This document shows, piece by piece, positions 2-63,801 of a DNA stretch of 64,000 nucleotides (position 1 is its first letter; every line of letters starts with the position of its first letter). The stretch is taken from the NCBI GenBank assembly GCA_015227615.1, contig JAALGZ010000025.1, positions 546,164 to 610,163 on the forward strand, given 5' to 3'. The notes under the pieces are model-generated. The model was given only the letters and a program-made list of their open reading frames with translations. It searched no databases and was not told the origin of the DNA. The position numbers and the translations under genes are program-made. This DNA comes from Labyrinthula sp. Ha. Its lineage: Eukaryota; Sar; Bigyra; Labyrinthulida; Labyrinthulaceae.

Positions 2-145
2 ACAAAGGGTGTTAGAGTTGTGGGTCAAATAGGTAAAGTTACAGTATCAATGCTAGAAAGAAATTTGTTGAGACTAGTTGAACAATTTCATATTGAACCA
101 AGATCAAAGTTAGTTGAAGCAGGAGGTAGAATAGTTCATAAGTAA
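2..145 (+). CDS. 3' end of an unrecognised gene (partial)
   Basis: An open frame enters from the left edge at base 2 and stops at TAA 143-145, giving the last 47 residues of a protein. The end reads ...RSKLVEAGGRIVHK and looks like a folded basic domain; I do not recognise the family. Its codon use resembles the neighbouring host genes. The stop lies inside the 3' end of the minus-strand PPOX gene, so the two genes overlap tail to tail by 10 bp. No start is visible, and a chance open frame cannot be fully excluded at this length. Confidence 0.55.
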   Translation, partial: TKGVRVVGQIGKVTVSMLERNLLRLVEQFHIEPRSKLVEAGGRIVHK

Positions 146-1536: not shown

Positions 1537-1580
1537 TTTATGAATTATTTATGGTAATGCAATATCAAGTTATTTAATAT

Positions 1581-7047: not shown

Positions 7048-15957
<8,910 letters not shown>

Positions 15958-18900: not shown

Positions 18901-21033
18901 ACTATCCCTCGTTTGAACTTCAAACCTTCCTAAAACCTTTTGATTAAAAGAACTCAGGATTCGGAAAACGGAATTTCCTTCAAGTAGTGGTTCAATCTCT
19001 AATATAAAACAAGAGACGAACTTTGAGTCTGGGTCTACTACTCTTGAGTTTTCTAACTTCCTCATTTGAAGCTGATTAACTTCAAAATCAAGGTCTATTT
19101 GATCAAATAGTGCAGAGCAAAATGAGTATGCAGCACCTGTTCTTATTCTACCTCCCACAAAAACTTTCTTTGCTGCGTTTTTATTGATCAACACTTTTTG
19201 GGTTTCTCGCAACCCACTAGATGTACTTTCAAATAGAAAAACCGTGGATGGATCTTTTACTGCGACATTGAATGCCTGGTAGTTTGATTCATCCAGTGCA
19301 TCCTTAATCTCAACATCACAGTCACCGGTTCTAATTGAGGAAGAAAAACCTTTCGAAATATGATCATAGCTAAAAAAGGTTTCAGGACAGTTTCGACTGC
19401 TCACAACGAAGTTCCCGCTTCCTCCTAAAACCAACGAATCCTGCTCAATCTTTTGTTCCACGGGCACAATTATTTTCGCAATGGGTAGAATAGAACGAAC
19501 CTGCTGAGTAATCATGAGCTTTTGCACCGCACTGAAAATACGCTTTCCAGTTAGAGTTTCATAGTAAGTTGACAAGTACAGAACACCTTCCTTCAACCCT
19601 TGCAAAACAAACAGATTTGGATAGTTCTCATCAATCCCATCTAAAGTTACAAATTTCGATTTTTGTTGTACTTCTTGTCCAAGTTCATTAGTTAGCTGAT
19701 AACCAAAGGACATTCCTGGAACGGCAAAAATAGAGTTTCGGCCAAGATCTAGAGCAGATCCAGAAAATTTTGTGGAGAATAGCTTCGTAAGAATCAAATA
19801 TTTTCGGTTGATAACAAAAATCCAACTTGTGCTGGAGGATGGTATGAACACATCATCATAAACAGAAACTGAGGCAAGTGCTCTGTACTGTGTAAACTTT
19901 CCTGTAGAAAAGTAAAGACAATCGTTATTATGAGCTAGTAAAGCTGATTCAAAGAAATCATAATCAACTACAAGTTTCAGTTGAACAACACTATCTAATG
20001 AAACCACAGAGATTAAGGCACTAATATGGTTTTGAGGAAACCCAATTTCAGCATAGGTAAGAACCTCTGTACCCCGCTTCAAAGTCTTCAATGATCCAGT
20101 TTTAGGGTCAATGTGAAGAACTGGGTTTGAAGAGGTGGTTTGCCACTGATAGTTATCTTTTGAAGAGATCGCAACCGTTTTATATTCTGAATCAGAAGTT
20201 TTTTTCTTTATGTATGAAGTTAGTTGAAACTCTGTTCCATTAAGTAACTCCAAAGGCTGATATAAAGCTTCAGGACAGGTTGATAAACTCTCCACGACAT
20301 TTATCTCAACTCCAGTTTGGATTTTCTTTTGTGAATCAAGCCCAACAAGTTCAGCACTTATATGAACAGCACCACTCGATACACCAGAAACAAGCAAATT
20401 ACTTCCTCTTGTCATCTTTTGTTCTTTCTTCTCTGAACTAAAAGGAAATATATCCAAAACAATATCTTTCTTTTCAGACCATCCAGACTTTTTTTTTCTA
20501 TATGGACAATTCCACAAGAACGCAACATTTTCTAAACTACTGAACACATTTTCATGTCTATCATATGCTTGAAGTTTAAGTGTTTCAAATTCTCCAACTC
20601 CAATTTTTCTAGAAGTTGTTAATATTTCTATTCGCTTAATATCAGAAACGTAGACTTCGAGAGATAGTTCTAAGAATGAGTTTTGAAGCTCAACTGGAAG
20701 GCTATTTCTCTCTGCAGTTGCTTTTACTCTGTATACATCAGTGTCATATGAAGAAGTAGATTTAGACAAAGCATCTGAGGTTGATATTTTAACTCGAGAT
20801 GAAGTTCCTGGATATTGTTCACACGGATCTTCAGTCACTGGAAACGGTTGTAACTTAACCAAGGAATTCTTTGACGTTTCCCAACGAAAGCAACCTGAGG
20901 AGACGTTCACTATTGAGAAACTATTGTAAGTTAATAATAAGCTAACTTCGGAGAGCTGGGGCTTTTTTATTGTGATTGCAAGAGACCCATTGAGTTGTAA
21001 TATAAATATGAATATAAGGATGAAGATATTCAT
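15958..21033 (-). CDS. NUP210: Nuclear pore membrane glycoprotein gp210/NUP210-like
   Basis: A 1691-residue single-pass membrane protein. The first 19 residues are a clean signal peptide. The early lumenal part carries the family hallmarks: a GCFRW motif near residue 47 and the block around SDIKRIEILTTSRKIGVGE / LKLQAYDRHENVFSSL. The rest is a long series of beta-rich Ig-like segments with scattered Asn-X-Ser/Thr sites. A single transmembrane helix (about 1660-1678, PWLLLQVTVAVFFALLG) is followed by a basic tail of only about 14 residues ending in KKGF. Family members are about 1800-1900 residues, anchor the pore ring in the nuclear envelope, and in animals have a longer tail of some 60 residues. 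The start ATG is at 21031-21033 and the stop is TGA. There is no intron in 5 kb. Plants and animals have gp210, while yeasts use Pom152. Confidence 0.85.
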   Translation of the reverse strand: MNIFILIFIFILQLNGSLAITIKKPQLSEVSLLLTYNSFSIVNVSSGCFRWETSKNSLVKLQPFPVTEDPCEQYPGTSSRVKISTSDALSKSTSSYDTDVYRVKATAERNSLPVELQNSFLELSLEVYVSDIKRIEILTTSRKIGVGEFETLKLQAYDRHENVFSSLENVAFLWNCPYRKKKSGWSEKKDIVLDIFPFSSEKKEQKMTRGSNLLVSGVSSGAVHISAELVGLDSQKKIQTGVEINVVESLSTCPEALYQPLELLNGTEFQLTSYIKKKTSDSEYKTVAISSKDNYQWQTTSSNPVLHIDPKTGSLKTLKRGTEVLTYAEIGFPQNHISALISVVSLDSVVQLKLVVDYDFFESALLAHNNDCLYFSTGKFTQYRALASVSVYDDVFIPSSSTSWIFVINRKYLILTKLFSTKFSGSALDLGRNSIFAVPGMSFGYQLTNELGQEVQQKSKFVTLDGIDENYPNLFVLQGLKEGVLYLSTYYETLTGKRIFSAVQKLMITQQVRSILPIAKIIVPVEQKIEQDSLVLGGSGNFVVSSRNCPETFFSYDHISKGFSSSIRTGDCDVEIKDALDESNYQAFNVAVKDPSTVFLFESTSSGLRETQKVLINKNAAKKVFVGGRIRTGAAYSFCSALFDQIDLDFEVNQLQMRKLENSRVVDPDSKFVSCFILEIEPLLEGNSVFRILSSFNQKVLGRFEVQTRDSLVVIYPEVALPSLDQEYKYISVMKNAPFQIILEGGFLESDSWTLLHIDSNSLTGLRGIVNRLKLQDAKWLNQAETDYMGINLDSNFHDSERRRYIIDFRLNGIFILKIASSGKQRAIIVNVQDPISLAVHYAPKNEGYFSSKESLYTNYSILAGIKESNIFFHLEFIDKFNFTMSAIDEKHREAVWKVSPTQHLSCDAPSKKIKLVDFFGGKKIPALEFRFTRFKVHKPCSFDVDAVVSSLGLKTNHEVRFVPLPTYDPPYYPTILANTNFSANLTILDGSGEFSCRVANGSAVLNLVRRRSVLLNGMAGPVSSKLKVQCEDSGLLNKEMLKLGNGQFGNIFTTHLNFEHVRALELGVHSNFAEVGQSKKIFTKVVDSRRRNFALSEYQKFNYSVVGQNPALFQVVKEVSVCFSNHDSLTSCPGIFQTTITPLDVSRTFKVFTQVISEERNAESRELELVFFPPLQIVPSKILLAEKSVRTVQIRGGPLFLTYESTGNKNDRSGSNFVECTPSVNARESIDILRQTLNSVTILAKSSLKGSNPGSLAVECLEKGGLKPLANVTSELFIPRLNNIKIISLTETSRLKFIYRDHLHFNLKAVTDSGLEDLLYFSAPNQNSDWYLDVKTKGYSKRYTTGLTVGNHAVAINVAAARELYGLSAQEKLVISLCATLEFKGRAFTSCENVEVFPAVRVSLGKDFSSNEVCTYEEVVIPVGEAAFVLDSNLRDSEDFFTSYEVTALDKRSSLPLSFKHGLIESNFSYETEFLATLRITPKDLHSQEDFLVQVQHTVVIVRKVAEINFVQQISNRLPETIDQSIFEQVQVALYDKEGNRMFTELMRGPRIEVFDSLLGDIKVSHIGGFHYSFGLSVGSEANISQSSGFTVLEARLISPFVDEFLLDKSNIKRYEHVDIVAFKELLVSPQLFLKDHKEQNIENKSNDSIINKEDTSSPWLLLQVTVAVFFALLGRKFLQRMTLQIKKGF

Positions 21034-22550
21034 ATCTGGATGTGGTTTTTAGAGTTTCCACTTGTTTCAATTGGTTATTTTTTTTGGGCAATTTCCCGAA
21101 AGTAGTAATACCTCTTTAACCAAGATTACGTGTACTAATTTTCACTACTGTCTAAATTGTAGACCTTCATATTTAAATATATTGGACTATTTCATTATAT
21201 ACTTAATATTTAAGGAAAATTATAGAAACCATACTCACAGAAATTATTATTGCAATGAGGATGCGAAACCAAACTTAGAAGAACTATGCACAATAGGGAA
21301 AAATTATTGTGTACGTAGAACTTTGTCTCTATATGAACCTAAAAAATATCAGTAATTTTTCCGTATTGCAGATTTTTGGTTTTAATAATAATCTTAGAAA
21401 TATAATTATTTTCAACAAACCAGCCTAGCTCTAACCTTGCACAGATAAGCGGAATTTAGTGATCTGGAGAACGTACCTATATTCGTGACGGAGTATTGAA
21501 TCGGAGGAGAGTGGTCAGGTGGTTTAATACAGAGTTACTATAATATTTCATATTTAACCCTTTTTTTTCAAACTTCTCTAAAATATGACAATTTTCCAGT
21601 TACTTAATATATTCACTTGAAAGAAATAAAGCTCTATGGCCGTACCACATGAATGACAGTACAGAAATGGGTTATTGAGCTCAATGACACATTTAGTTTG
21701 ACACATTGGCATAAGAACGTTCTAATTATCAATATTTGATATTTGGATGTCTGATGGATTTGACGTTTGTTTATATTACTGTCTGTTACAGAAAGAACAG
21801 GCAGCTGATTCTCGTTCATCTGACTCTCAGTGTGGTTAGTTTTATTAAACCTGTATTTATAAAAAAAAATTACTTCTAACTAAGAATTTATATTTTTAGG
21901 GGAGACTATAAGCTTTGTAAAATCCTTCCCGTTTCAATATATCCAACTCAGAATTCGTAATAGAAGATTTCAGCTAGCTTAAGAAATGTTGGATCTTATT
22001 TTATATGTCTAGTTTTCTGAGGTGATTATCAACAAACAATCCTCCGAGAACATAAATTGCCGTGTATCATAATCTTATGGTTCTTTAAGGGTGAAATGCG
22101 TTAATTTTACACTTAACACACAGCAAGAATCATAGTTTCATTAGCATCTTAACCAGGGACAACAAAATAAACACATTTTCTGGGCTTCGTTATAATTTAT
22201 CTCTTGAAAAAGCGATATTTCTAAGATAGACACATGTATTTAATTTCCATGAAGCTCTGTTTAAGATATTTTTTAAATATTTGCTGTCGTATATTAAACT
22301 CGTTGTCAATTCGATGTTAATTGTATCCACTAAACAACGAGTATATCTTATTGTAGTTAAAATTATGATAAATTAAGAAGTTTATGTTGATTACTGATTA
22401 ATAATATCTATTTAGCTAATCGGAAATTATCCCTCGGAAAGGATTAAATAGAAACTTAACAAGCTTTAGAGAAATTAGCACAGGAGTATTGTTTCCTGAA
22501 AACTGTCAAATTCTCTCACTGGTTGCTTTTTATATCGTAAAAAATCTTAA
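21034..22550. other. Spacer upstream of NUP210, no gene assigned
   Basis: The left end must hold the NUP210-like promoter. The frame on the plus strand from about 21062 to 21355 is open for 97 codons but begins without an ATG and I do not recognise it; an exon of an unidentified gene is possible. Near 21513-21530 a tRNA A-box-like string (GTGGTCAGGTGG) is present without a matching B box. The rest shows nothing recognisable. Confidence 0.35.
21082..21094 (+). promoter_or_regulatory. Candidate upstream element TTTTGGGCAATTT
   Basis: It lies 49 bases from the NUP210-like ATG. Here the motif is in plus orientation while the gene is on the minus strand, so it either works in both directions or serves an unrecognised plus-strand transcript. 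Confidence 0.35.
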
Positions 22551-42013: not shown

Positions 42014-42018
42014 CTTAG
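42014..42018. repeat. Target-site duplication CTTAG, left of copia
   Basis: The five bases CTTAG flank the element on both sides (here and at 47043-47047). Uninterrupted units read ...GTACCTTAGTAGTTTT, with CTTAG only once, so the pre-insertion site is known exactly. Confidence 0.95.
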
Positions 42019-42141
42019 TGTTAAATAATATAAATATATTTATGGCAGTTGCTTTTTATAAGTAGTCGTTGCAAATAGTACATTGGTACTAAAGCAGACT
42101 TTAATCGGTTAATTGGTTTTTAAATATAAAACTGTTCAACA
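42019..42141 (+). repeat. Copia 5' LTR (123 bp)
   Basis: Begins TGTTAAATAATATAAATA and ends AACTGTTCAACA, with TGTT/AACA inverted ends. It is very short for a copia LTR but must contain the promoter; AT-rich TATA-like sequence is present near its start. Confidence 0.95.
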
Positions 42142-42157
42142 GGTTAAGAGCCTAACC
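42142..42157 (+). other. Putative primer-binding site of the copia element
   Basis: GGTTAAGAGCC follows the LTR directly. It lacks the TGG expected for pairing with a tRNA 3' CCA end. It resembles the binding sites of Drosophila copia and yeast Ty5, which pair with the anticodon arm of initiator tRNA-Met, but reads AAG where those have ATG; a CUU-anticodon tRNA would match better. Inferred. Confidence 0.4.
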
Positions 42158-42486
42158 TCTGCTACTGATCCTATCTTTCTCGATTCACTTAAGTTTAGAT
42201 TCTAAGAAGGTCTAGAAGAAAAAGACAAACTTCAAGAGAAAAACTACTTGAGTTCCTCAATATTCAGGTTAAGAAAGAAAAGAATTTATTTAACAAGTTG
42301 TCTTACTTCACAACTTGTACTTTTCCTTGAAAGACTGGTATCAACCAAAAGTTATAAATATTACAACATCACCTTATCTATATTCACGGATACCATATAC
42401 AATACCACATTACTACGCAAACAAATACCGTACCAAAACAAATCAAAAACGACAAAATAAGAAAACAAATTATAAAGTTAAAGACT

Positions 42487-45400
42487 ATGAACATTGGCAA
42501 AGAATCCAACAAACTTCCTAAGCTCGGAACCCCAAGAGTCCCATTTAGAGACTGGGAAACAACTATTCTTGCATATCTTGGCAAAAAACACCTATCCATG
42601 TTCCTACAATATGAAATTACATCACCTAGACTGTTAAAAGAAGATTCCTCCGCTAGAGAAGGTCTCCAACAATATCTTAACGAAATTAACAACGAAGAAT
42701 TCTACGATGTAAAGAAAGTTAAAGTATATAACGATGAATCCATGGATACGCCTCTGGAACTTATGAACCTTTCTATGACAGCATCTGTAGTTGTATTGGA
42801 TAAATTAGTTGTACCTTGCTACTATGATAAGAAAGTGTTTCTTAAGGATAAAATGGAGCTAGCTTCGAAACAACTTGAGGTTATTCACACTCTAAGAAGA
42901 TCTATGACTATAGAATTGGTTCACTACATTGACAATGGACCTACAATATTTCATGGAATGATGCAAATTCGGATTCACTATATGAAGGACAAAGATACAG
43001 CTAGAATACAAGCAAAACGAAGACTTCAAAATATTCAATATCGGGATCTTGCTTCTTACATTAATATTTTTCGAAAAAGATTCTCTGAATACTGTCTATA
43101 TGGAGGCCAAGAATCTAAAGATATTGCTGAAAACTTCATCCAAGGACTTCCTGATGATAGGTTCTATGTGCACAAATCCATGTGCAATGAGACCACGCTT
43201 GCAGGGACCATAAGTTTCTTCCTCAAAGTAAACGCCAACATTACTCTCCGATGTCCTGAGCAAAAATCCAGATCCAACAACGTGAAAGTTAAAGTGGCCA
43301 ATGTCCAAAACAATAAGTTTTCCTCTACCTCTACCAATCCCACAAGAAAGAAGATTTTCAAAGCAAAAAACAGATGCTTGAAATGTGGGGGTTTCGGCCA
43401 CTACATAAAAATGTGTCCAAATAAAGAACACGTCTGCTTCTTGTGCGGATCCGGTTCTCACACATACAAAAACTGCACGATCCAAGTTATTAGAGTAAAT
43501 ACGGTCGATATTTTAGAAGATGAATACGCGTCAGAGGATGAAACGAGCCAAAACGAGGAATGTAACGCAGAAGAAAACCAAGTAGAAGAAGAGTATGAAC
43601 TGAATGAGTATCCGACGAACGTTGACTACTCTCTCATGACCCTAAACATTCAACTGAAAGATGTATCTGTCTCAAAAGAAAAATGTACCCACAGGTTCAA
43701 TGAACAGTGCTTATGCTGCCTAGTTGATTCTGGAGCAACGCAACACGTCACAGGAAATCGAAATCTTTTATCGAATCCTAAAGACATCTCTAACGTCAAA
43801 GTATCTGGAGCACTTCACACCAGAAACATCAACACTGTCCAAGGATCTTTGAAGCTACTTCTTAAAAACAACACAGCTATACATCTAAAAAACGTTGTGT
43901 ACATACCTGGAATCAAACAAACCATTATCTCCGAACCTCAGCTGGTGGATGACAACTTTGCTATTATTAAAGACAAGAAAGGAGCCAGAATAACAAAACA
44001 TGATCTTACAGTTGCACACCTACACAGAAAAAACAACCATTATATTCTTCATTGTATCAAAAATCCAAACAACAGAATTGCGTTGAACGAACTTAACGTA
44101 TCCTCTTCTGATCTCTCCCACTACAGACTTGGTCATCTAAATAAAGAATACATAAAAAGAAACGGATACCCTGAGATGAAACAAGATTTCTGCATTGGAT
44201 GCTCAGCTGGAAAACTGGTTCAAAGTCGCAAACACAAAGCAGTTCAATACTCTAACAGCTCTCTCATGAAAGGAACGTATCCTTTTGAAAAGTTACACAC
44301 AGATACTATGGGCCCGTTCCCCTTATCCTTCCAAAATTTCATCTGGATCAACCTTTCAGTCTGCAACTACACTGGATATCTCATACCTATACTTACAAGA
44401 AAGAAAGATACAATATCAAACGAGCTGATAAAATGCATAAAAAAGCTTCAAAAACAATATGACAAACCTGTGAAGTGTATTTTCTCTGACAACGGAACTG
44501 AATTTAAAAACCTGGATCACTTCTGTTTAAAATCTGGAATAAAGCGGGAGTATTCGAACGCATATCAACCTTCTGAAAATGGACGTATTGAAAGACAGAA
44601 CAGAACTGTCGTATCCATGATGAGGGCCCTCTTATTCCAATCCAACTTATCCGAACGTTTTTGGTGCTTTGCAGCCAAACACTCCTGCTACATCCTCAAC
44701 CGAATAGCAAAACAACTATCAAAGTCACCCTTCGAAATAATCTATAACATCCCTCCAAAGCTAGAGAACATAAAGTTATTTGGCGCAAAAGGCTTCGCAC
44801 TCAAACCGAGGAAATCCAAACTATCAACTACGACTCCCATCATCTACTTAGGAAATGACGTCCAATCCAAAGCATATATCACACTCAACTTGAAGACCAA
44901 CAAAATTCAACTATTTCGAACCATCCAACTCGACGAGATCGGCACCATACGTGCAACATACAATAAATTCATATCACTCTCACCAAAAGACTTAAAAAAC
45001 AACATCCACAAAGACCGTATGAGAAAACTGATCAACAAAAACCTCCCACATCTTCAGATACAACAACCAGAGTACTACGAATTGTCAGATAACAGCTCCG
45101 ATACGTCCGAATCTCCATCAATCGAGGAAATCAAACCAAACAGTTGTGTTTCATCTCCAATTCAATTTAATTCTAAGGTGTCTCAAAAGGATCAAAATTT
45201 GGGCAATTCTACAAAGTGGGTGAATTCTGAAATTAGCACAGATAACATCATTCAAGGATGCAGAAATAGGAATCACACAGTTAAAAAATTAGGAGTAAAA
45301 TCAGCCAATAAAATCAAAAGAAATCAAAATTCAGATGAAGAAGAGGTTTATTCATCCAATAAAATCACGAATAGCACAATACCACCGAGAACCTATTCAC

Positions 45401-46929
45401 AAATACAATACAGAAACGACAAACAATACTGGTTAGAAGCATATGAGAAAGAACTCAAAGCTCTCGAAGAAACAGGGATTTTTAAGGTCGTTGACAGACC
45501 AGAGCCTCCTAATAGGGTGATACCTATTGTTGAGCTGTTCAAAGTGAAAAAGGATTTCTATGGAAATATGATCGCAAAAGTCAGGATCTGTGCGAACGAC
45601 AACAAAGCTAGAAGTCAGTTCAAGAAAAGAGATACAAGATTTTACGCTCCTGTTGCTCCAATAACTACAATAAGAATATTTCTATGTATTGCAATTGGAT
45701 TTAAGATGTGGATTAGACAGATGGACATCACAGCTGCCTTCATCTATGGATCTCTTCCAAACGATATATTTTTAGAGCTTCCAAGAGGTCACCCAAAAAG
45801 AGACGGCAACAAAAAAGTATGGAAATCTTCAACATCAATATATGGACTCCGCCAAGCCCCGAAGATTTGGTATGAAACTTTGAGAAACACATTAGAGACG
45901 TTAAATTTAAAACCGGTGGTTGGAGAAAGCTGTCTGTTTTCTGACGGGGAAAGGAAAGAAATAGTCGTTTTAGTGTATGTGGACGATCTTTTATACTCTG
46001 GAACAGAGTTTAGAGTATCTGAATTCGAAGATCTTATGAAGAAAAGCTACAAGCTGAAGAGTAACGAAGTGGCTGACACGTATATTGGAATACGTCTTAC
46101 CAAAGGTGCGAAAAATAGCTGTATTTGCAACATGTCTTCTCACATAGTAAACGGATTCTACAAACACAAGCTCAACTTAGAACAAGTTCAAACTGCTCCT
46201 ACTCCGATCAACACAGATCTTACGTCCGATGATACTCCTAAACTATCTGAAGAAAAAGAATATCAGCAAATGGTTGGATTAGCTAACTATATAGCTATAA
46301 ACGGAAGACCAGACATATCTTTTGCTGTTCAAACTCTAGCTACTTCTATGTCTTGTCCAACTGAGCTGGGCCTTACGCAGGTAAAACGTTTATTTACGTA
46401 TCTTAAAAACACGAAAGAATACAGTTTAGTTTATCCAAAACTGAAGGAAGTGAACACGCTGAATATGATGGTGGATAGTTCTCATGCTAATGGAAAAGAA
46501 GAAAAGACTGTATATGGAAACATCATTACGTTAAATAATAATGTTATCTCATATCGAAGCAAATTGGAACCTATTTACACTCGAAATTCTACGATAGCTG
46601 AGTTTATTGGAATTAGTTTATCTGTGAAGGAACTTAAAGCAATATATGAAACTCTTAAGAACTTGAAGATAAAAGTTGCTACAAGAATATTTATTGATAA
46701 TCAGGGAGCACTTCGTATGTGCAAAGGTGAATCTGCTCAACATGCTGTGAAGCATATTAGTTCAAAGTATAAATGTGCAAGTCAAGAAATTAAGGAAATG
46801 AATGCTGAACTTATTTACGTTCAGACTGCAGAAAATTTAGCTGACCCCTTTACTAAACTTGTTGGTAAGAACAAACTGTTCAACTTATGTGAAAAAGTAT
46901 TTCAAATGAAGGGGAAAGGTGTTAAATAA
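42487..46929 (+). CDS. Copia gag-pol polyprotein
   Basis: One 1480-residue frame from ATG 42487. The gag region (about 1-290) is followed by two CCHC zinc knuckles (Cys297-Cys310 and from Cys317). An aspartic protease site DSGAT lies at Asp414. The integrase has its HHCC finger (His545, His550, Cys569, Cys572) and catalytic Asp606, Asp668 and Glu702. Reverse transcriptase has Asp1080 (MDITAAF) and the YVDD loop at 1164-1167, with YGLRQAPK between. RNase H at the C-terminus has the MMVDSSHANG, LSVKELKAI and FIDNQGAL segments. Gag and pol are fused without a frameshift, as in Drosophila copia. The last codons and the TAA stop (46920-46929) are supplied by the 3' LTR. No inactivating change was seen. 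Confidence 0.96.
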   Translation: MNIGKESNKLPKLGTPRVPFRDWETTILAYLGKKHLSMFLQYEITSPRLLKEDSSAREGLQQYLNEINNEEFYDVKKVKVYNDESMDTPLELMNLSMTASVVVLDKLVVPCYYDKKVFLKDKMELASKQLEVIHTLRRSMTIELVHYIDNGPTIFHGMMQIRIHYMKDKDTARIQAKRRLQNIQYRDLASYINIFRKRFSEYCLYGGQESKDIAENFIQGLPDDRFYVHKSMCNETTLAGTISFFLKVNANITLRCPEQKSRSNNVKVKVANVQNNKFSSTSTNPTRKKIFKAKNRCLKCGGFGHYIKMCPNKEHVCFLCGSGSHTYKNCTIQVIRVNTVDILEDEYASEDETSQNEECNAEENQVEEEYELNEYPTNVDYSLMTLNIQLKDVSVSKEKCTHRFNEQCLCCLVDSGATQHVTGNRNLLSNPKDISNVKVSGALHTRNINTVQGSLKLLLKNNTAIHLKNVVYIPGIKQTIISEPQLVDDNFAIIKDKKGARITKHDLTVAHLHRKNNHYILHCIKNPNNRIALNELNVSSSDLSHYRLGHLNKEYIKRNGYPEMKQDFCIGCSAGKLVQSRKHKAVQYSNSSLMKGTYPFEKLHTDTMGPFPLSFQNFIWINLSVCNYTGYLIPILTRKKDTISNELIKCIKKLQKQYDKPVKCIFSDNGTEFKNLDHFCLKSGIKREYSNAYQPSENGRIERQNRTVVSMMRALLFQSNLSERFWCFAAKHSCYILNRIAKQLSKSPFEIIYNIPPKLENIKLFGAKGFALKPRKSKLSTTTPIIYLGNDVQSKAYITLNLKTNKIQLFRTIQLDEIGTIRATYNKFISLSPKDLKNNIHKDRMRKLINKNLPHLQIQQPEYYELSDNSSDTSESPSIEEIKPNSCVSSPIQFNSKVSQKDQNLGNSTKWVNSEISTDNIIQGCRNRNHTVKKLGVKSANKIKRNQNSDEEEVYSSNKITNSTIPPRTYSQIQYRNDKQYWLEAYEKELKALEETGIFKVVDRPEPPNRVIPIVELFKVKKDFYGNMIAKVRICANDNKARSQFKKRDTRFYAPVAPITTIRIFLCIAIGFKMWIRQMDITAAFIYGSLPNDIFLELPRGHPKRDGNKKVWKSSTSIYGLRQAPKIWYETLRNTLETLNLKPVVGESCLFSDGERKEIVVLVYVDDLLYSGTEFRVSEFEDLMKKSYKLKSNEVADTYIGIRLTKGAKNSCICNMSSHIVNGFYKHKLNLEQVQTAPTPINTDLTSDDTPKLSEEKEYQQMVGLANYIAINGRPDISFAVQTLATSMSCPTELGLTQVKRLFTYLKNTKEYSLVYPKLKEVNTLNMMVDSSHANGKEEKTVYGNIITLNNNVISYRSKLEPIYTRNSTIAEFIGISLSVKELKAIYETLKNLKIKVATRIFIDNQGALRMCKGESAQHAVKHISSKYKCASQEIKEMNAELIYVQTAENLADPFTKLVGKNKLFNLCEKVFQMKGKGVK
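46908..46919 (+). other. Polypurine tract of the copia element
   Basis: GAAGGGGAAAGG ends exactly at the 3' LTR start, the expected site of plus-strand primer formation. It also encodes part of the polyprotein C-terminus. Confidence 0.85.
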
Positions 46930-47042
46930 TATAAATATATTTATGGTAGTTGCTTTTTATAAGTAGTCGTTGCAAATAGTACATTGGTACTAAAGCAGAC
47001 TTTAATCGGTTAATTGGTTTTTAAATATAAAACTGTTCAACA
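46920..47042 (+). repeat. Copia 3' LTR (123 bp)
   Basis: Identical to the 5' LTR except for one transition. It overlaps the last 10 bases of the gag-pol gene. Confidence 0.95.
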
Positions 47043-53857: not shown

Positions 53858-54540
53858 TGTAACGTCTGATAATACTTCTATAAAATATTCAGCTTCTTTA
53901 TATGATATTACGTGGAGTTTTTGTTATATTTTGGTCTTGGATCAAGTGTTGGTATATAAGGTGTGTGTTTGATTGTGAAATGTTGTTGTACAAAGAAAAC
54001 TGGGTGTTCAGGAGGTGTTTAATAGGTCCCTATAGGAGCTGTGAATTGTTTGTGAGTGTCTTTGACGTGTTTTTGGAGAGATATGATCGATTTGAGTGAA
54101 TTGGGAACCTTATTTTTTGTCTTTTAGCATTCGTATTGCATGACAGTTTTCGCCCGTGATGAGACCCTGGGTGGTTTGTTCACCGATGTTTTTATGCTAT
54201 AGATTTACATTTTGTGACATTTGCTGATATAAATTTGAGATGAGATATTGTTAGTCACGATTGAGGTGCAATAGCTTTGAGTAAGGGTTTTAGTATATGT
54301 TATATATATGGTGTGGTATTGGAATTAGGTTGAAATATGATGTATTATACATATATGCTTTGGAATAGTTAGTGTAATATAACCGTTAAGAGAAGTAATA
54401 AGAAAAAGTTTGTTAAGAAAGAAAAGAAAAGAATATATTGTTGATTGTTTTATAAGAAGAGTTTACGCTTACATTTATATTAAAACTACTGAATTTCCTG
54501 GGACGTGTAGCGTACATAAGTTAATCGCACGATAAACGCA
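53858..54540 (+). repeat. Gypsy 5' LTR (683 bp)
   Basis: Aligned end to end with 61033-61715, same length, with TG...CA ends. By eye there are about 48 differences, including a few one-base indels. Near 54420 it has an A/G-rich stretch. Confidence 0.9.
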
Positions 54541-54556
54541 ATATTTCGAAATATTG
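54539..54556. other. 18-bp perfect palindrome across the LTR/internal junction
   Basis: CAATATTTCGAAATATTG starts with the last two bases of the 5' LTR. No TGG-type tRNA primer site follows the LTR, so this is the place where a primer-binding site would be expected. A role in priming is speculative. Confidence 0.5.
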
Positions 54557-54639
54557 AAAGTTTAATTCAGAAGTTTTAATTTGTTTGAAGATTTTAAGAA
54601 GTTTGAACAACGGAGGAGTTTTTAGGAAGATATATCGCT

Positions 54640-55608
54640 ATGAGCGAAAGACAAGCTAATATGAACCAAATGTTCAAGGCATTTGAGGATATTTTGATAA
54701 GATTAGATGAGAGGAACGCCAAGAGACAAGAGGATCTTTTAATAAGAATGGAGGAAAGAAACTCTAGAAGAAGTGAAGAGATCACGAACAGAAACAGGGA
54801 GGTCATTCAGACGCTGACGGAAGAAAACAGAGTGAGTATGAATATGTTAACGAGTCGAATGGCAGGCTGTCATGCTAGGATCACAACACTGGAAGATCTT
54901 GAGATGAGGAGCATGTAGAAGTTCATTTATGAGGTGGAGCGCCTTAACCCCTGCACTAGGAAGTTTATCTATTTAAAAGAAATGTTAGGAGAAGAAGTTT
55001 TTAAGAGGTTAAGCAATGCTGGCACTGTTGATTCGAATGAAAGTATTATCGAAGCAATCAAGGAAAGAATTAGAAGTGAAAGAAGTAGGACTGCGACGAA
55101 TGCAGTCGCTCTTATTGAAAAATATGTGAAGTTCAACACTGAAATAATTGAAGAAGATGCAATAGAAGCAGTATTTCAAGACGTTGAAGAAGTTTTGACT
55201 TATCTTCCATCTGAAGCAGAGAAAAAACCTAAGGACATCGCGAAGGCAATCTTGAAGTTGATGCCGGACTTTATGTGGGTCCGGGAGGATGATTTAACTT
55301 TGAGACCAGAACTTAAAGCAGCAGATAGAACTGCGTTAAAGGCTTATGTTATGGGCTGTATGCCACCGCCTTACGCGAGGAAGTCTAAAGTTACGAAGAA
55401 AGAGAAAGGTCCGATAATAAAAACGCCAATGAAGAAGACGAGGTTTGCGGTCAAGGCGCAGAAACCTGTAGTTAGAAAGCAGAACCCATCGCAGAATATT
55501 AAGCGTACACCTCTTTTGTGTACACACGAGTGGGAATACGGGCACACAGAGCCCTATTGTTATAAGAAGAAAGCAGGAGAATCTGCTAAACCCCATCCAG
55601 GTGAATAA
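54640..55608 (+). pseudogene. Gypsy gag region (interrupted)
   Basis: Starts at ATG 54640 and stays in one frame for 323 codons apart from a TAG at 54916-54918; the TAA at 55606-55608 separates it from pol in the same frame. The first 92 residues are charged and probably coiled-coil (repeated Glu/Arg/Met heptad-like pattern). The middle part is helical, as in capsid. Near the end is a degenerate zinc knuckle with the CCHC spacing in which the second Cys is Glu (CTHEWEYGHTEPYC). The frame downstream of TAG 54916 reads on as gag, so that stop is probably a mutation; the TAA at 55606 might be a genuine gag/pol boundary. Confidence 0.75.
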
Positions 55609-57831
55609 GTTTTGAAGAAGCGGATGGAGGATTATGTAAGAAGAAAGGAAGCTGAGTTAATATCAGCAAAAAGAGTCCAAGAGGCTGAGGTGCTTGCGGA
55701 GAAAGCAGAGAAGCTTTTTGGAACTAAGACCTACAAATGTTTTCAAGACAAGTCGTCTGGAGATTGTAATAAGACGGATGAGGTTTTTGAGAAGGCAGAA
55801 GTAGGAGATGTGAAAGGATATGAAGAAACTAGAGATAAGCTAGGAAAGAAGGAGAAGTGTTTTAAAGTGAAAGAGAAAAAGGAAGTTTCGAACAGAGCTA
55901 TTATTGAAGTTGATATAAGTGGATTTAAGTACAAAGCTTTGCTAGATTCTGGAGCCTTCAGGAGTACGATCCATCAAAGTTTGAAGAAGCATTGCAGCAA
56001 AATAAAGAAGTTAGAGAAACCTTTCAGGGTACAAGCCGCCGGAGGTGCTATATATCCGGTTTGGAAAGTGGGACAGTTTCCAGAGATCACCGTAGTAGAT
56101 CAAGATGGGCATCGTGGTTTTGTCTTTTACGAGGTTGAAGCCCTTATATTAGACGTCCAGGAATGGGACGATCTAATCCTAGGAAATGAAATACTGTCAA
56201 GATATAACTTAGACCCTTTTAGTGCCCTTAAAAGAAGAATGGGAAAAGGGAAAAGTATGGAAGAGAAACCCACATTCGCGAAATGGTTTTTGGATTATGT
56301 AGGAGAAGAGGAAAGTGAGATGATCAATGTAAAATCCTTCTACTCTGGAATGGACAGTTCTGCTCCGAAAAACGCACTCAAAGTACCACCTTATATATTT
56401 GGAGCAGACTTTCCTGAGCAAGAAGAGTTCATGGAGTTGGAAAATATTGACGTAGGTTTAGGTGCTGCAAAAAGTGGACAAAGTGATGATAATAGGATGC
56501 GTGCAAAGATTAAAGACAAAGTGGAAGCAATAGATGTGGTTCATTTTTCTTCCTCTCCTGCGTGGAAAACGAAGTTTGTAGAACTATTTGAAAGCAACTT
56601 TAAAGCCTTTGGCGATGCAGAAAGCTCAACTCAACTTTCCATTATTACCCCAATAAGATGTGATTTATTACCAGGAGAGAGAGTGGGGATTCAAAAGCAG
56701 TTACCATTAGGACAAGAGCAGGAGAATTTTTTACATAAACGTATTGCTCATATGGAGAAGGCGGGTATTATTTACCCGAATAAAAATCCAACTACTGCTA
56801 TGTCAGTGTTGGTGGTTCCAAAGAAGGGACCGAAGAAGTTCAGATTGGTCGTTGATTTTAGACCGCTGAACAAAATAACTCAGAGGGTCAATAATACACT
56901 CCCGAGGATAGAGTTACAGTTGAACCGCGTTAGAGCAAACAAGTTTTTTGCGGGTTTTGACCTTTTGAGCGGTTTTGACTACCTGGCTTGTGAAGAGCAA
57001 GCCGGTCAGTATTTTACTTTTACGACCCCCTGGGGAATGGCCTACTCTTTTTTAGGAGCACCCCAGGGGTGGTGTAATACACCAAGTCTTTTTTCTATGA
57101 GACAGATAGGTGAAGTTTTAACACCTATTGGTCTCTGGCCTCATAAAGCTCTACAGTGGATCGATGACTCCATCATCATGGGGGAGTCGATTAACGAGCT
57201 TTATTCAAATGTTGAAAGTTTTTTACGTCAAATACAGAGCAAGAAGCTAAGGTTAAATATAGACAAGTGTGAGCTTGTTGCAAATAACCTGGTATTTTGT
57301 GGTAGAAGTTTTGATAAAGATGGGTGGAAATATGACATACACTACGCTAAAGGATTATTAAATAGGGTTAAACCTGTGTATTTACACGAGTTAGCCCAGC
57401 TGATTTATACAGCAAACTTTATTTCTCCTACTATTCCTGGGTTTAGTAGGATGAGAAAAATAGTTCTAGGCTCACATAAAATAGGAGGAAAGATGAGGAA
57501 CTTAGAGAAAAAGAAACTTAAAATCATTTGGGATGAAGAAATGGAGATGGCCTACACTGAGATGATCGAAGCTATCAAGAGAAGCATGGAATGTTCAATA
57601 GGATATTATGACCCTGAGCAGAATATATATTTATTCACAGACGCTAGCGAGTTTTTTTATTCTCTTTTTATTACTCAAAGTGCAGAAGCTGTGGATGTTT
57701 ATGATCCTTTTAAATCTAACTTCAGAGTTATTGCAATAAACTCGGGTGGTTTTACCGGGTCCCAAATCAAGTGGCATATTTCGTGCAAAGAGTTGTTTCC
57801 AGTCCTTATGGCTATCAAAAATATCCCTTTT
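55609..57831 (+). CDS. Gypsy pol part 1: protease, reverse transcriptase, RNase H start
   Basis: Same frame as gag, continuing after TAA 55606. Retropepsin-type LLDSGA has its Asp at 55945. Reverse transcriptase has VVDFRPLNK, the first catalytic Asp in FAGFDLLSG (56959), LGAPQGWCNTP, and the WIDD loop (57157-57168) in place of YVDD. RNase H begins with FTDAS (Asp 57640) and includes CKELFP (Glu 57790). No separate start codon is evident, so expression would be by readthrough of the stop or from an unidentified initiation. Homology leaves this frame at about 57826-57831 and continues one base back (-1 frame). Confidence 0.88.
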
Positions 57832-58574
57832 ATTTACGTTTTAACGCGAAGGAAAAGATCTTATTTACAGATCATAAAAACTTAGTCAACATTATAAATC
57901 CTAGAGAGGTTAAATTAAAATCTCATGGATCCAGACTAAGTCGTTGGGCTCTTGACTTTATGGAAATAAACTTGCAGGCTTATCACTTAGAAGGGTATAG
58001 AAACATACCAGCAGACTGTTTGTCTCGCTGGTTAAACCCTAAATATCATGATGAAGTCGAAGAGGTTATTATTCAAAGAGCTATTTTTAATTCAGAAGAT
58101 CAGGATGATGAAATAGAATTCTGGAGAGTTATTGATGAGATGAATGTTTCTCCCAGACATCCTGGTAGTTTAGACTTGGCTGGAAAAGGATGGGAAATAA
58201 TTGATGACAAACTTATTTTGATGTTTCAAAAAAGGGATATACCTGAACTAGAAGTAGTAAAGAAGATGGAAGGAAAGATGTATGTGACAAAAAGTATATT
58301 ACCTTTAGTGATCATGCACACTCATTTTATATTCAACCATTCTTCAGTCAAGAAAGAAATCAATTTTATTAAAGAAAACTATTATTTTGAGAAGGATATT
58401 TTTAGTTTATTTAAGAAGGCAATTATTGTATTACATCGACAATGTATACATTGCCAAAAACCTAGTCTTGTGATTAGGCGCCCGCTGAATGTAACAGCGT
58501 GGGGCAGTAAGGCTGGTGAAGTCTTACTGTCAGATTTTTTATATGTTAATAAAAAGGGATGGATTTTAACTTAA
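57832..58574 (+). pseudogene. Gypsy pol part 2: RNase H end and integrase zinc finger
   Basis: Reads in the -1 frame relative to part 1. The C-terminal half of RNase H (LFTDHKNLV, SRLSRWALDFMEI, NIPADCLSRW) is followed by the integrase N-terminal HHCC finger (HTHFIFNHSS ... CIHC) and the first catalytic Asp (LLSDFLYV, 58533). It ends in an in-frame TAA at 58572-58574 inside the integrase core, after which the same frame continues without loss of homology. The stop therefore looks like a point mutation. Confidence 0.85.
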
Positions 58575-61013
58575 GTAGATTCGCTTACTAGAACTACTAT
58601 TTTAAAGTATTGCGATAAAGCTACTAGTGATAAAGTAGTTAGCATTTTATGGGACTGGCATGCCCATTTCCAGTTATTACCTGCTTTTACTTTAGTTACA
58701 GACAGAGGTTCTCATTTTACCTCGGAAGTTTTGGAACAGTTTCTAAAGAAGTCTGGTTGTGCACACCAGTTTAGTGCTACTTATGTTAGCCACACCGCAG
58801 GTGCGGTAGAAGTGCAGAATAAAACTATCTTAAGAAACCTTAGATCCATAGTGAGTGAGTGGGGCTTGGGGGATGAAGAGTGGCCAGATGTTTTACCAAT
58901 GGTCCAAGCTTTTATTAATCAAAGCCCACTCACTTGTAGAGGTATGGAGATGAGCCCGTTGCAACTCATGATTGGTGTAGGGAAGAATGGATCACCGCTT
59001 GGGGCAGTATACAAAGAGATGGAGAAGCAGGATTACAATAAATTGAAAGAAGTTTCTTTGGACTTAAGAAGGAAGATCATGGACTTACAAGCTAAAGCTG
59101 ATAAATGTGGATTAGAGCACAGGATGAAGGTGAATAAGAGAAGGAATATGAGGGGAAAGTTGAAACCTATTTACTTTGGAGTAGGAGAGTTTGTTTGGCT
59201 TTCTGAAAAAGAAGCTGGAGAAGGTAGACGAGACAAGTTAAAGCCTCGCTGGTGCGGACCGTATCAGGTTATTGAATGCATTAGCGAGCACATTTATGTT
59301 ATTCAAGATGTGGATGGTAAAAAGAAAACTCGTCACTCTATGTTATTAGCACCTTATGCTCCAATAGGTTTTTTACCTAGTTCTGCTACGTCTTTGGTTT
59401 ACAGAATGGACAAAGGTAAGTTGGAGTTGGATAAGTTGATTAAGCTTGTGAAAGATGATGAAGGGCAGTTGAAGTTTTTATGTAGGTGGAGAGGTTTTTC
59501 TGAGAATGATGATACTTTTGAACCAGCTCTTACTATTTTTGAAGATTTACCTTATTTTGTTGTTGAGTTTTGCAGAGATAATAAGTCTTTAGAGACGGTA
59601 CAGTTGATGGACTTTTTGATGACAGTATACCCTGACTCAGAATACTTAGGACAGATTGAGATGCAGAAGAAGATCTTTGCCATGAGTGAGAATGAGGTTA
59701 GTAGTTTTGAAGAGAAGCTTATTTTTGGTAAAATATTTATTGATGAAAAAGGTAACTGGAATAGGCTGAATTGGTCGACATTTGAATTGCAATCATTAAG
59801 AGTCGGATTATTGAGCAGAGGTTTTGGAAACTTTGAAGAACTGAAACTTTTTATTCCTGGAAAAAGTAAACAACAAATATATACTAAAATACAAAGAACT
59901 GTGGGTAGACAAAGTCTAAACATCTACCATGGATTGTATTTAGATCTATTTGCCTTGAGACAAGATAACTCAAGATGGAGAAGTGAAGATTATTTTGTGC
60001 AGAAGAAACCTTTATCTGAAGGAATGAAGCTATTGAGGAAGTATTTATTTAAATGGAAGTATGTTAAAAAGAGTGTTGAGAATCAGAAACAATATGGGTC
60101 TCTTTTTATTGAAGTTTACAATTTGACTTACAGTGGGGGTGTTAAGATTATGATGGATGAAATGATGTCTAATGAAAATAAGAACCGGAGAAGTTTCCCA
60201 AGAATAACAGGAACACGAGAAGAAGCTTTACTATTTTTAAAAAATCTATGGTCAAAACTTAAAAAACGTGAAAAGGAAGTTGAAAAAGAAATATACAAAG
60301 CAGAAGATTTAATTTCGCAAAATGTTTTAATGCCAACTAAGAAAGCTGATTTATTATTTTCTGAAGGTGAAACAAATAATTTAGTAAAAGTGGAAAGTGA
60401 AAAGTTGAATTTTATTGTTTATCTTTGGAAAATACCTGAAGGGTCATATTTTTATGCTGGTAAAGTTGAGGAGTTTTTGGTTAGCCACAATAAGGAATAT
60501 GATGTAATAGTGGTTGATCCACCTTGGTATACTTTTTCAGCTGACCCAGTTAGAGGTCCAGCTGTTAATTACAATGTAATGAAGGATTTTGACATAGTAA
60601 ACTTGAATCTCAAGAGAGTGATGAGTAACACAATGATTTTTGTCTGGGTGATTAGAGGAAAAGAACATGTAGTTGAACAACTTTTTGAAGCTAATGGAGT
60701 TAAGAAGCTAGGTCATTTGGTTTGGATAAAAACAAATGGCAAGGACAAAATCGTTTCTACTTTGGGAAACGTTACAATGAAGTGCACTGAAGAGTGTATC
60801 ATTGGAGTTTATAATTCGTTTCCAAAAACTTTAATTCAACGCAATTTTGGTAAAGAAGTATTTTATGGTAAGCGTTCTGGCAACGCTCAAAAGCCAATTG
60901 AATTTTATGAGCTCATTGAGAGTAATTTTGAGTCAGATGCGACCAAGTTAGAATTATTTGGACGTAAAAATAACTTAAGAAATGGATGGTTAGTGGTTGG
61001 AGATGAACTTTAA
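58575..61013 (+). CDS. Gypsy pol part 3: integrase core, chromodomain, SANT-like domain, MT-A70 adenine methyltransferase
   Basis: 812 codons in the same frame as part 2. The integrase core has the second Asp (TDRGSHF, 58701) and the Glu (GAVEVQNK, 58809), 35 residues apart. A chromodomain follows at about 59400-59570 (FLCRWRGFSENDDTFEPA). At about 59755-59920 is a Myb/SANT-like helix segment (LNWSTFELQSL, RGFGNFEEL, KSKQQIYTKIQ). After a lysine-rich region comes the MT-A70 domain (about 60430-61013): YDVIVVDPPW (DPPW at 60516-60527), FVWVI, VWIKTN, CTEECIIGV, QKPIEFYELI and ELFGRKNNLRNGW near the end. This pattern is that of METTL3/Ime4/MTA1-type N6-adenine methyltransferases of RNA or DNA. 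Positions that are Asn-Gln near the C-terminus of METTL3 are Asp-Glu here. The stop is 20 bp before the LTR, so the domain is the end of pol and not a separate host gene. Confidence 0.9.
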   Translation, partial: VDSLTRTTILKYCDKATSDKVVSILWDWHAHFQLLPAFTLVTDRGSHFTSEVLEQFLKKSGCAHQFSATYVSHTAGAVEVQNKTILRNLRSIVSEWGLGDEEWPDVLPMVQAFINQSPLTCRGMEMSPLQLMIGVGKNGSPLGAVYKEMEKQDYNKLKEVSLDLRRKIMDLQAKADKCGLEHRMKVNKRRNMRGKLKPIYFGVGEFVWLSEKEAGEGRRDKLKPRWCGPYQVIECISEHIYVIQDVDGKKKTRHSMLLAPYAPIGFLPSSATSLVYRMDKGKLELDKLIKLVKDDEGQLKFLCRWRGFSENDDTFEPALTIFEDLPYFVVEFCRDNKSLETVQLMDFLMTVYPDSEYLGQIEMQKKIFAMSENEVSSFEEKLIFGKIFIDEKGNWNRLNWSTFELQSLRVGLLSRGFGNFEELKLFIPGKSKQQIYTKIQRTVGRQSLNIYHGLYLDLFALRQDNSRWRSEDYFVQKKPLSEGMKLLRKYLFKWKYVKKSVENQKQYGSLFIEVYNLTYSGGVKIMMDEMMSNENKNRRSFPRITGTREEALLFLKNLWSKLKKREKEVEKEIYKAEDLISQNVLMPTKKADLLFSEGETNNLVKVESEKLNFIVYLWKIPEGSYFYAGKVEEFLVSHNKEYDVIVVDPPWYTFSADPVRGPAVNYNVMKDFDIVNLNLKRVMSNTMIFVWVIRGKEHVVEQLFEANGVKKLGHLVWIKTNGKDKIVSTLGNVTMKCTEECIIGVYNSFPKTLIQRNFGKEVFYGKRSGNAQKPIEFYELIESNFESDATKLELFGRKNNLRNGWLVVGDEL

Positions 61014-61032: not shown

Positions 61033-61715
61033 TGTAACGTCTGTTAACATTCCTATAAAATATTCAGCTTCTTTATATGATATTACGTGGTGTTTTTGTT
61101 ATATTTTGGTCTTGGATCAAGTGTTGGTATACAAGGTGTGTGCTTGATTGTGAAATGTTGTTGCACGAAGAAAACTGGGTGTTCAGGCGGTGTTTAATAG
61201 GTCCCTATAGGAGCTGTGAACCATTTGTGGGTGATTTTTATGTGTTTTTGAAGAGATATGATCGATTTGAGTGAATTGGGAACCTTATTTTCTGTCTTTT
61301 AGCATTCGTATTTCATGATAGTTCTCGCCCGTGATGAGACCCTGGGGTGGTTTGTTCACTGATGTTCTTATGCTATGAATTTACATATTGTGACATTTGT
61401 TGATATAAATTTGAGATGAGATATCGTTAGTCACGATTGAGGTGCAATAGCATTAAGTAGTGGTTTTAGTATATGTATTATATATGGTGTGGTATTGGAA
61501 TTAGGTTGAAATATGATGTATTATACATATATGCTTGGAATAGTTAGCGTAATATAACCGTTAAGAAGAAGTAATAAGGAAAAGTTTTTAAGAGAAAGAA
61601 AGAAAGAATATATTGTTAATTGTTTTATAAGAAGAGTTTAAGCTTACATTTATATTAAAACAGCTGAATTTCCTGGGACGTGTAGCGTACATAAGTTAAT
61701 CGCACGATAAACGCA
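61033..61715 (+). repeat. Gypsy 3' LTR (683 bp)
   Basis: Direct repeat of the 5' LTR, ending ACGCA. The four bases after it (ATAT) happen to equal the first four internal bases after the 5' LTR, so the exact end could be four bases further on. Confidence 0.88.
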
Positions 61716-62319
61716 ATATGTCTGACTAGTAGAAACTGTAACTTTATCGCAGAAAGAATGAAACCAAATCATCTAAAATATAAGCCTAATGCAATAGGGG
61801 TGGAGCTCTGATAAGTTAATCGATAATTGAATTGATGAAATAGTCGAAAAAATATTGCTTAATCAATGTTCCCCATCCCCCACAAACAGATTTAATCGTT
61901 AGCTACAACAATTAGCAAGCTAGAGCTAGACCGCTGCATATTGTTCGAAATGTATGGGTAGGGTACAGATTTGTGAAACGTGCTACATTGCATATTTACG
62001 AGTGTTATCCAGGAATCTGAAAGAATAACGAGCAGCTTTCCTAGAACATACAAACCGAAGCCTAAGAGTTGACCTTTCTCGGTATACAAACGAAACAAGG
62101 ACGATAGTAGTAAAGGTTCACAAAGGAACAGTATAGGTAGGAGGGTGAAGATAAGACACAGCGGGAGGAGAGACAAAAAATACGGGAATGGGATATATAT
62201 AGAGAAGAATTAGGATATAAAAAAAGGGATAAGGGATAAAGAACAAATCGAATAAGTTTTTTCATTCTTAGTGAGCACAAGGTTAAAATTAAATTCAATT
62301 CTTAAGAATATTACTGAGA

Positions 62320-63801
62320 ATGCGCAAAAGTAAACGTTTACAAGGAGAGACGCCCCCAGAGGTGGGCGAAACCGACCAAGAAAAGGGAACTGCAGTCTCT
62401 GTTGGTCGTTTTAGGGAGGATGAACAAGTAGGAACGGGATCCACAGGACAAGAATCGGAACGCTCAGACACGAACTCCGTGGGGAGTGAACAGTAAATAG
62501 AAACGGAAGAAGAGGTTCAGGATGCTTATGGCCCAATGGCTAGCATACCAACCACCAGTTTGGTCACATCGGAATTAATACTTCAGTTAGTGGAGGCCCT
62601 TAAACCTGGAATAACGGATATAGTACACGAAGCGGTGACACAGTTAAGGGACGAAATATTAGAAAAACAAAATAAAAATCAAAAAAGAACAGAAAAACAG
62701 CATAAAAATAAGGAAGTTATTGGGACTGATGAGGAAGAAGTTACAGATGGACTGGATAAACAGAATGACGATAATTCAACGGATCATAGCGAATACTCGT
62801 TCGGTGGATCTCAAAGAAGAGGAACCCGAAGAGGAGACGGTAGAAAGGAAAGCGACTTGGATGTCGGGAAGGCCCGTTTAAACAAAACCCAGATGTCGGG
62901 TAAACCAATGTTAAAAGGACTTCAAGCGGATGAGATATATAAGTTCCAACTGCTGTTTAGCAGATGGGAGAAAGCCGTAGTGCAGGAAGGGCTAGGGTTA
63001 ACAGAGGCAACCATAATGAACTATTTATCGGAAGAAGTTCTACTGGAGTTGCACATGTCGAAGATAGATACGTCCTCGGGAGCAGCGGTGATGCATCATC
63101 TGGAAAAGATAAGAAGTTAGGGGATCGAGAGCAAGAAGGCGAGCATACTAACGGATGTGTCGCGAAAAGTGAAATGGACCAATGAAGGAAATATAAGTGT
63201 ATCCATGTCAAGTTATTTGCAGCAAGTTGATAAACTCCTTCTGGGAATTGAACTAGCTGAGGACCCGTATTTAGATAAATTCTTGTGTTTGGAAGTGCTT
63301 AAACGGCTTGCAAAAGCCTTTAAAGACCCCAACCCTAAGCATACGATTAAACGACGAAGATGGACTAGCTACTATGTTATGAGGAAGGACTTATCTGATT
63401 TGACAAGGCTGCTAGTCCCCCCCCAGGATTTTGATGACCCGGCTCTCAGGATGGCGCCCAATAATATGGGGCCAGTCAAGCGGGAACCACGAACAGAAAA
63501 TGTGCGTGATAAACAACCACGAAGACATCCGCAAGGCCCCGGTGGGGTCGAGCAGAGGGTGCGTATGGAACAGACTCCTGAAGGCCAAAGACAAAGATTA
63601 CCCGATTCTTGGAGTAAGGAAAGGAAGAAGGAATATGCGAAGCATAAATATTTATGTTTGTTTTGCTTCACAGAAGGACACAGAATCAACGACTGCAAAG
63701 TATTGAAGCAGCGTAACTCATCAGTGAATCGAGTGGAGCACTTATCCCAAAAAGAAAGTTCCCGGGCGAGAATCAGCAGTCGTAGGTGGAGATACAGTTA
63801 A
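62320..63801 (+). pseudogene. Gag of the third LTR element (two in-frame stops)
   Basis: From ATG 62320 one frame runs to TAA 63799-63801, interrupted by TAA at 62494-62496 and TAG at 63118-63120. The N-terminal part is charged and low-complexity, and the middle is helical. Near the end is a CCHC zinc knuckle CLFCFTEGHRINDC (about 63654-63695), which identifies it as a retroelement nucleocapsid. If the first stop is real, translation could begin at ATG 62536. I do not recognise the family beyond LTR-element gag. Confidence 0.7.

Follow-up and report, generated by a model that had tools for sequence, protein, structure and literature searches.

A Ty3/gypsy chromodomain lineage of a labyrinthulid with a fused p1-AMT1 adenine methyltransferase cassette at the end of pol

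What does an adenine methyltransferase do at the end of a retrotransposon polyprotein, and does it belong there at all? The question is raised by a 64,000-nucleotide stretch of Labyrinthula sp. Ha DNA (the window), for which a preliminary description made from the letters alone proposed a Ty3/gypsy element carrying an MT-A70 domain. The element is confirmed: a pair of 686-bp LTRs encloses protease, reverse transcriptase (RT), RNase H (RH), integrase (IN) and chromodomain (Table 1). So is the domain. In a profile search of the frame at 58575-61013 (forward strand, 812 codons from stop to stop), residues 642-811 match positions 1-172 of PF05063, which is the whole model, with an E-value of 3.3e-26 and 92.7 bits (cut-off 23.9). 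The DPPW motif lies at 60516-60527, as had been read. The stop codon (61011-61013) is 19 bp 5' of the 3' LTR at 61033, close to the 20 bp given earlier. The same frame contains an SH3_Tf2-1 match under the Pfam cut-off.

Table 1. Features of the window, with positions counted from its first letter.
Feature	Position	Strand	Evidence
Flavin amine oxidase, host gene	139-1548	-	
ATP synthase beta, mitochondrial type, host gene	7051-8607	-	PDB neighbours
NUP210-like protein, host gene, 1696-codon frame	15961-21048	-	
5' LTR, TG...ATA, 686 bp	53858..54543	+	
Perfect 18-bp palindrome CAATATTTCGAAATATTG spanning the LTR/internal junction, at the expected primer binding site	54539..54556	+	
Gag region, two pieces in the same frame with an in-frame stop between them	54607..55608	+	placed by position
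Aspartyl protease (LLDSGA), 5' of RT	55924..56238	+	
Reverse transcriptase	56731..57333	+	RT E 1.1e-18
RNase H, shortened by a frame break near 57720-57885	57508..57861	+	
Remaining RNase H through the beginning of the integrase, in a different frame, with a terminal in-frame stop	57720..58574	+	placed by position
Integrase core, remaining part	58575..58994	+	rve 1.5e-5, under Pfam cut-off
Chromodomain	59409..59579	+	Pfam Chromo 25.6 bits, barely above cut-off of 25.1
p1-like (AMTP1) Myb/homeobox-like domain of the MTA1c DNA-6mA complex	59769..59981	+	fold evidence taken from L015 and its relatives, homologous region
Long helix of the predicted model; corresponds to the N-terminal arm helix of MTA1 in the alignments with six of the ten MTA1 entries listed	60216..60317	+	
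MT-A70 methyltransferase domain, AMT1-like, with PVRG motif	60465..61004	+	Pfam match 60498-61007
3' LTR, 686 bp, 92.7% identical to the 5' LTR	61033..61718	+	

The window copy itself is a damaged one. Its pol is broken by in-frame stops at 54916, 55606 and 58572 and by a frameshift between 57720 and 57885. The methyltransferase was said to be in frame with the integrase; this holds for the integrase part after 58575, but the remainder is separated from it by the upstream stops and the frameshift. The gag region has no Pfam gag match, and a duplication scan of the flanks found no target-site duplication at this copy.

The domain is a genuine gene of the element and not a lone fragment, for it stands at the end of pol in all 20 other loci that were read. 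The assembly comprises 50.8 Mb in 153 contigs, and counts in it are lower bounds, since 150 of 354 candidate MT-A70 matches and 150 of 579 integrase candidates were scored. All 150 listed MT-A70 matches exceed the cut-off, many of them in long frames; one is a host gene, AMT1. The 20 loci (L009-L028, 8.9-10 kb each) were picked for long open frames, so that the share with frames of more than 2000 codons (14/20) does not describe the genome. Every one is flanked by a pair of direct repeats with 93.5-100% identity, the MT-A70 frame ending just before one repeat. The pairs are at least 99% identical in 13 loci, so that some of the lineage must have been active in recent times. Target duplications of 4 bp were found in 12 of 18 testable elements from the pool of these loci and the window, compared with a mean of 2.2 and a maximum of 7 when the flanks were shuffled 2000 times (shifts up to 14 and 8 bases were permitted). 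The flanking repeats and target duplications thus identify mobile LTR elements, partly recent, to which the MT-A70 domain belongs. The order RT, RH, IN is found in 19 of the 20 loci, those whose read frame contains all three. A custom profile detects the chromodomain in 21/21 elements; Pfam Chromo is above its cut-off in the window and in six of ten scanned C-terminal pieces and weaker in the other four.

The reverse search, starting from the integrase, gives the same picture. The 150 scored integrase matches are 33-100% identical to that of L018, and 74 of them have, among the matches listed, an MT match 0.9-3.6 kb downstream. The preliminary description had named family copies without the domain as the observation that would count against it, and this search was run in part: at 20 of the other 76 loci the expected place was read, and p1 was present in all 20 and MT in 19, the last one running off its contig. 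Several of these copies contain stops. Among these 20 of the 76 integrase loci lacking a listed MT match, no Ty3/gypsy copy was found to be missing the module.

The more telling half of the cassette is the p1 domain, which the preliminary description missed. Its likeness to p1 (AMTP1) exceeds that of a generic Myb domain, and the parts follow each other in the elements as integrase, chromodomain, p1, helix and methyltransferase. No chain named p2 occurs among the best 60 PDB matches of the element profile; MTA9 matches the profile at 50 bits, through the common MT domain. The computations show that a Ty3/gypsy chromodomain lineage bears a fused p1-AMT1 cassette at the end of pol, made up of relatives of the DNA-binding and the catalytic subunit of the eukaryotic DNA N6-adenine methyltransferase, in an order common to deeply diverged families.

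The affinity of the methyltransferase was examined in trees and in a predicted model. A phylogeny with METTL3, METTL14, METTL4 and MTA1 had been proposed at the outset, and its outcome is a preference. When the references are two AMT1, two METTL3 and three METTL14 sequences, the best tree groups the elements with AMT1 against METTL3/METTL14 (support 96/91). Placing the elements with METTL3 or with METTL14 gives an AU p of 0.057 in either case, so that neither is formally rejected; neither grouping occurs in the best tree. An earlier tree, containing a single AMT1 and a fragment of METTL4, left both of these unplaced and gave an AU p of 0.071 for the METTL3 grouping. METTL4 was rejected as the closest relative, since 7cv6 (Methyltransferase-like protein 2 by name, which we take to be METTL4) scores 25 bits and MTA1 109. 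In six of ten listed MTA1 entries the predicted model is aligned from residues 290-292 to MTA1 from 135-137, judged by the range ends; the other four align only from 358, without the helix. An arm helix like the MTA1 helix that binds p1/p2 thus appears to be present in the predicted element domain. Pfam scans of pieces of the elements list no CCCH zinc finger. Together, the fusion to p1, the tree and a putative arm helix of MTA1 type favour the AMT1 branch, the one acting on DNA; host METTL3 and METTL14 were also not detected.

The catalytic motif is largely but not uniformly kept. Among 41 domains the DPPW site reads DPPW in 24, DPAW in eight, DPPY in six, and DPPG, DAPW and NPPW in one each. 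The catalytic D is conserved in 40 and R357 in all 41. Since 17 of the 41 deviate from DPPW, part of the lineage may be inactive.

The host has a solitary AMT1 gene (L049; G000:C91, match 220653-221273) with a 327-codon frame, and chromodomain, p1 and integrase are absent from the 3.6 kb read around it. Its product is 57% identical to Tetrahymena AMT1, 40% to human METTL3 and 41% to the nearest elements. Orthologues of METTL3 and METTL14 were not detected in the assembly with a METTL3-like (P0013) and a METTL14-like (P0011) query, though introns or gaps could hide them; the best matches, at 90 and 87 bits, include none better than the host AMT1 and the element domains.

The cassette has been inherited largely jointly with the RT and integrase, as computation shows. 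Trees of RT, integrase, p1 and MT were compared for 16 elements, leaving out four near-copies and L016, which is without RT. Pairwise they have 7-11 of 13 splits in common, compared with a mean below 0.4 and a maximum of 4 by chance (four pairings shuffled), and their path lengths correlate with Mantel r of 0.71-0.92 (p 0.0001 each). L024 and L027 are unstable in the trees. Such congruence fits a capture that predates the split of the families, after which the parts were passed on together. That there was only one capture is not evident from the MT tree. When two AMT1 references are included, the AMT1 pair sits in an unresolved fork among the elements, and a branch that has all elements on one side occurs in only 2% of the 200 bootstrap trees; with a single reference it occurs in 88%, AMT1 and METTL4 being unplaced. 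A single capture is read from the fact that p1 and MT occupy the same place throughout.

Selection was estimated in ten pairs of elements, of which only three, two of them sharing L015, are near enough for dS to be generally unsaturated. In these three, dN/dS is 0.14, 0.05 and 0.07 for MT, 0.10, 0.07 and 0.07 for p1, and 0.02-0.06 for RT/IN. Purifying selection on the cassette is thus measured in close pairs. The only values obtained from the other pairs are 0.26 at a dS of 1.44 (MT, L018 and the window) and 0.15 at a dS of 3.06 (p1, L022 and L028). In more distant pairs the dN of MT is about 1.3 to 2 times that of RT/IN, for example 0.40 versus 0.21 and 0.23 for L018 and L021.

The elements occur in two protease architectures. 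The protease precedes RT in five of the 20 loci and in the window, and lies between p1 and MT in 12 (L009-L017, L019, L020 and L027). In the integrase tree and in the p1 tree a branch (96 each) sets these 12 apart from the rest; the trees of RT and MT place L024 with them. In three loci, L024 included, the frame examined shows no protease. A protease between p1 and the methyltransferase would be well placed to separate both halves.

On balance we favour, by a modest degree of belief, the explanation that the p1-AMT1 cassette marks the element's own DNA with 6mA. Protease cleavage would release the cassette, and p1, perhaps together with the chromodomain, would anchor it on element DNA. The methyltransferase, alone or with host AMT6/7 and p2, would then write 6mA at ApT sites of the element cDNA or of a fresh insertion. 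The new copy might so begin its life resembling an active gene rather than an unmarked silencing target, because 6mA marks transcriptionally permissive DNA and 5' ends in AMT1-encoding eukaryotes, with peaks near transcription starts (PMC12695648, in its available passages). The same passages report transposons without 6mA enrichment in the species mapped, which counts against self-marking. The ciliate methyltransferase requires partners, p1/p2 serving DNA binding or activation (PMC9174199 and PMC9852454, as excerpted); as no p2 or AMT6/7 is seen in the element, the cassette would borrow host partners or work without them. Also counting against this explanation are the motif variation, the faster MT dN, the AU p of 0.057, the 2% bootstrap value, the helix-less alignments in four of ten entries and a host AMT1 about as close to human METTL3 as to the nearest elements. 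A fuller version is offered tentatively and is itself rather doubtful: the fused p1-AMT1, released by the element protease and completed by host partners, would mark the element's cDNA or new insertions as active genes ahead of silencing by the host; the copies being many, transposons, not the single host AMT1 gene found, may be the main source of 6mA here.

MT-A70 enzymes also produce m6A in RNA, which speaks for a different substrate. The cassette could write m6A on the element's genomic RNA, steering packaging, translation or stability, as METTL3 does on mRNA. A host in which METTL3 and METTL14 are not detected could find an RNA writer useful, the METTL3 grouping survives the AU test at 0.057, and Ty3/gypsy elements with an m6A eraser are described (PMC9289625). 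We nevertheless hold an RNA role to be unlikely: p1 is the subunit of a DNA enzyme, the helix is aligned to the MTA1 arm in six of ten entries, AMT1 is nearest by both sequence and tree, and the Pfam scans of element pieces list no CCCH zinc finger. The place of the cassette behind integrase and chromodomain in one polyprotein would agree with a role in integration. Here p1 and the chromodomain would guide the pre-integration complex towards active, promoter-proximal DNA rich in 6mA, the methyltransferase being more a binding or structural module than an enzyme. The 6mA peak near transcription starts (PMC12695648, in part) and the 17 of 41 domains that differ from DPPW agree with this. The catalytic D in 40 and R357 in 41 of 41 domains, together with an MT dN/dS of 0.05-0.14 in the three close pairs, do not, and we regard such a role as fairly improbable.

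The elements might also act on their host. Their p1-AMT1 could compete for the p2 and AMT6/7 of the host, or deposit 6mA throughout the genome, altering host chromatin to the element's benefit. The copies are many, no p2 or AMT6/7 partner is seen in the element, and MTA1 alone recruits p1, p2 and MTA9 (PMC9174199); against this, the host AMT1 is still a separate open frame, and interference of this kind seems distinctly improbable. Self-methylation that silences or slows the element, favouring long-term survival with the host, has been proposed for retrotransposon DNMTs (PMC5890265, in part). For the present elements it is very hard to credit: 6mA accompanies permissive, not silent, chromatin (PMC12695648, same passages), and the repeat pairs of at least 99% identity in 13 of 20 loci speak of recent activity.

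The comparison with known systems begins with MTA1c, or AMT1-AMT7-AMTP1-AMTP2, of Tetrahymena. The elements have in common with it an AMT1-type methyltransferase with DPPW and PxRG, an arm-like helix in the predicted model, and the Myb/homeobox-like subunit p1. In Tetrahymena p1 and AMT1 are separate proteins, whereas relatives of both are fused in the retrotransposon polyprotein; moreover, in one group of elements the two are separated by a protease, and neither p2 nor AMT6/7 is seen in the element. Ty3/gypsy chromoviruses share the order AP-RT-RH-IN-chromodomain with the window's group, but lack the added p1-AMT1 module, the protease behind p1 of the second group and the palindrome at the expected primer site. 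Eukaryotic adenine methylation has reportedly been reviewed by Iyer and Aravind in 2016.

Other retrotransposons have acquired methylation enzymes. Those of dinoflagellates and a charophyte (de Mendoza 2018, PMC5890265, in part) likewise captured and multiplied a DNA methyltransferase, but theirs is a cytosine-C5 enzyme of a family unrelated to MT-A70. DIRS-type elements with a Dam-like methylase, cited in the available parts of PMC5890265 and PMC6338049, resemble the present ones in having an adenine methylation domain in a retroelement; they are tyrosine-recombinase elements, whereas here MT-A70/AMT1 and p1 are found in an integrase-bearing Ty3/gypsy element. A DIRS identity was rejected, since in place of a tyrosine recombinase and a Dam-type methylase the pieces scanned contain an integrase (rve) and MT-A70. 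In orchids, Ty3/gypsy elements that encode an AlkB m6A demethylase also combine such an element with an N6-methyladenine enzyme, but AlkB is an RNA m6A eraser in an additional ORF and the present module is a writer in the pol frame (PMC9289625, in part). Thus methylase-bearing retrotransposons are known for cytosine or Dam-type enzymes, and none of those precedents is an MT-A70/p1 module. No report of an MT-A70 or p1 retrotransposon occurs among the titles and abstract openings listed for open-licence papers on methylase domains in retrotransposons and on MT-A70 with RT or integrase.

If the explanation is true, a eukaryotic-type 6mA writer has been retained together with its own DNA-binding subunit over deep element diversity. 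The families of this enzyme superfamily are described as relatively static since ancient duplications (PMC12695648, in the passages available). The elements make it testable whether 6mA itself renders DNA permissive, because a writer-bearing element should profit only if the mark has an effect. Furthermore, a natural p1-AMT1 fusion becomes available for structural and biochemical work.

The palindrome at the LTR junction is not peculiar to the window. A perfect palindrome of 12-18 bp lies over or just behind the end of the 5' LTR, at the expected primer binding site, in 19 of 21 elements; the exceptions are L012, whose LTR end was probably called short, and L018, whose LTR reaches the contig end. 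The 19 elements have 11 distinct sequences, so the symmetry is conserved though the letters vary. Random 65-nt windows have a mean palindrome of 5.4-6.0 bp and attain the observed length in 0.2-2%; a single control, the Copia-type element in the window, has 6 bp. One idea is that a second, cleaved element RNA pairing at the palindrome primes instead of a tRNA.

The surroundings of the element are repetitive. Positions 29491-53857 are occupied by a tandem array whose 2206-bp unit contains a 5S rRNA gene (eight found). Where the element's 5' LTR begins the array breaks off, some 130 bp short of the expected start of the next 5S gene as reckoned from the repeat register, and it was not seen again downstream up to 64000 in the window. 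Inserted into the array, at 42018-47042, is the Copia-type element (RVT_2 1.5e-34), with one 1523-codon frame and 124-bp LTRs that are 99% identical. A further retroelement-like gag, with a CCHC-like zinc-knuckle motif recognized by eye, starts at 62497 and leaves the window at 64000.
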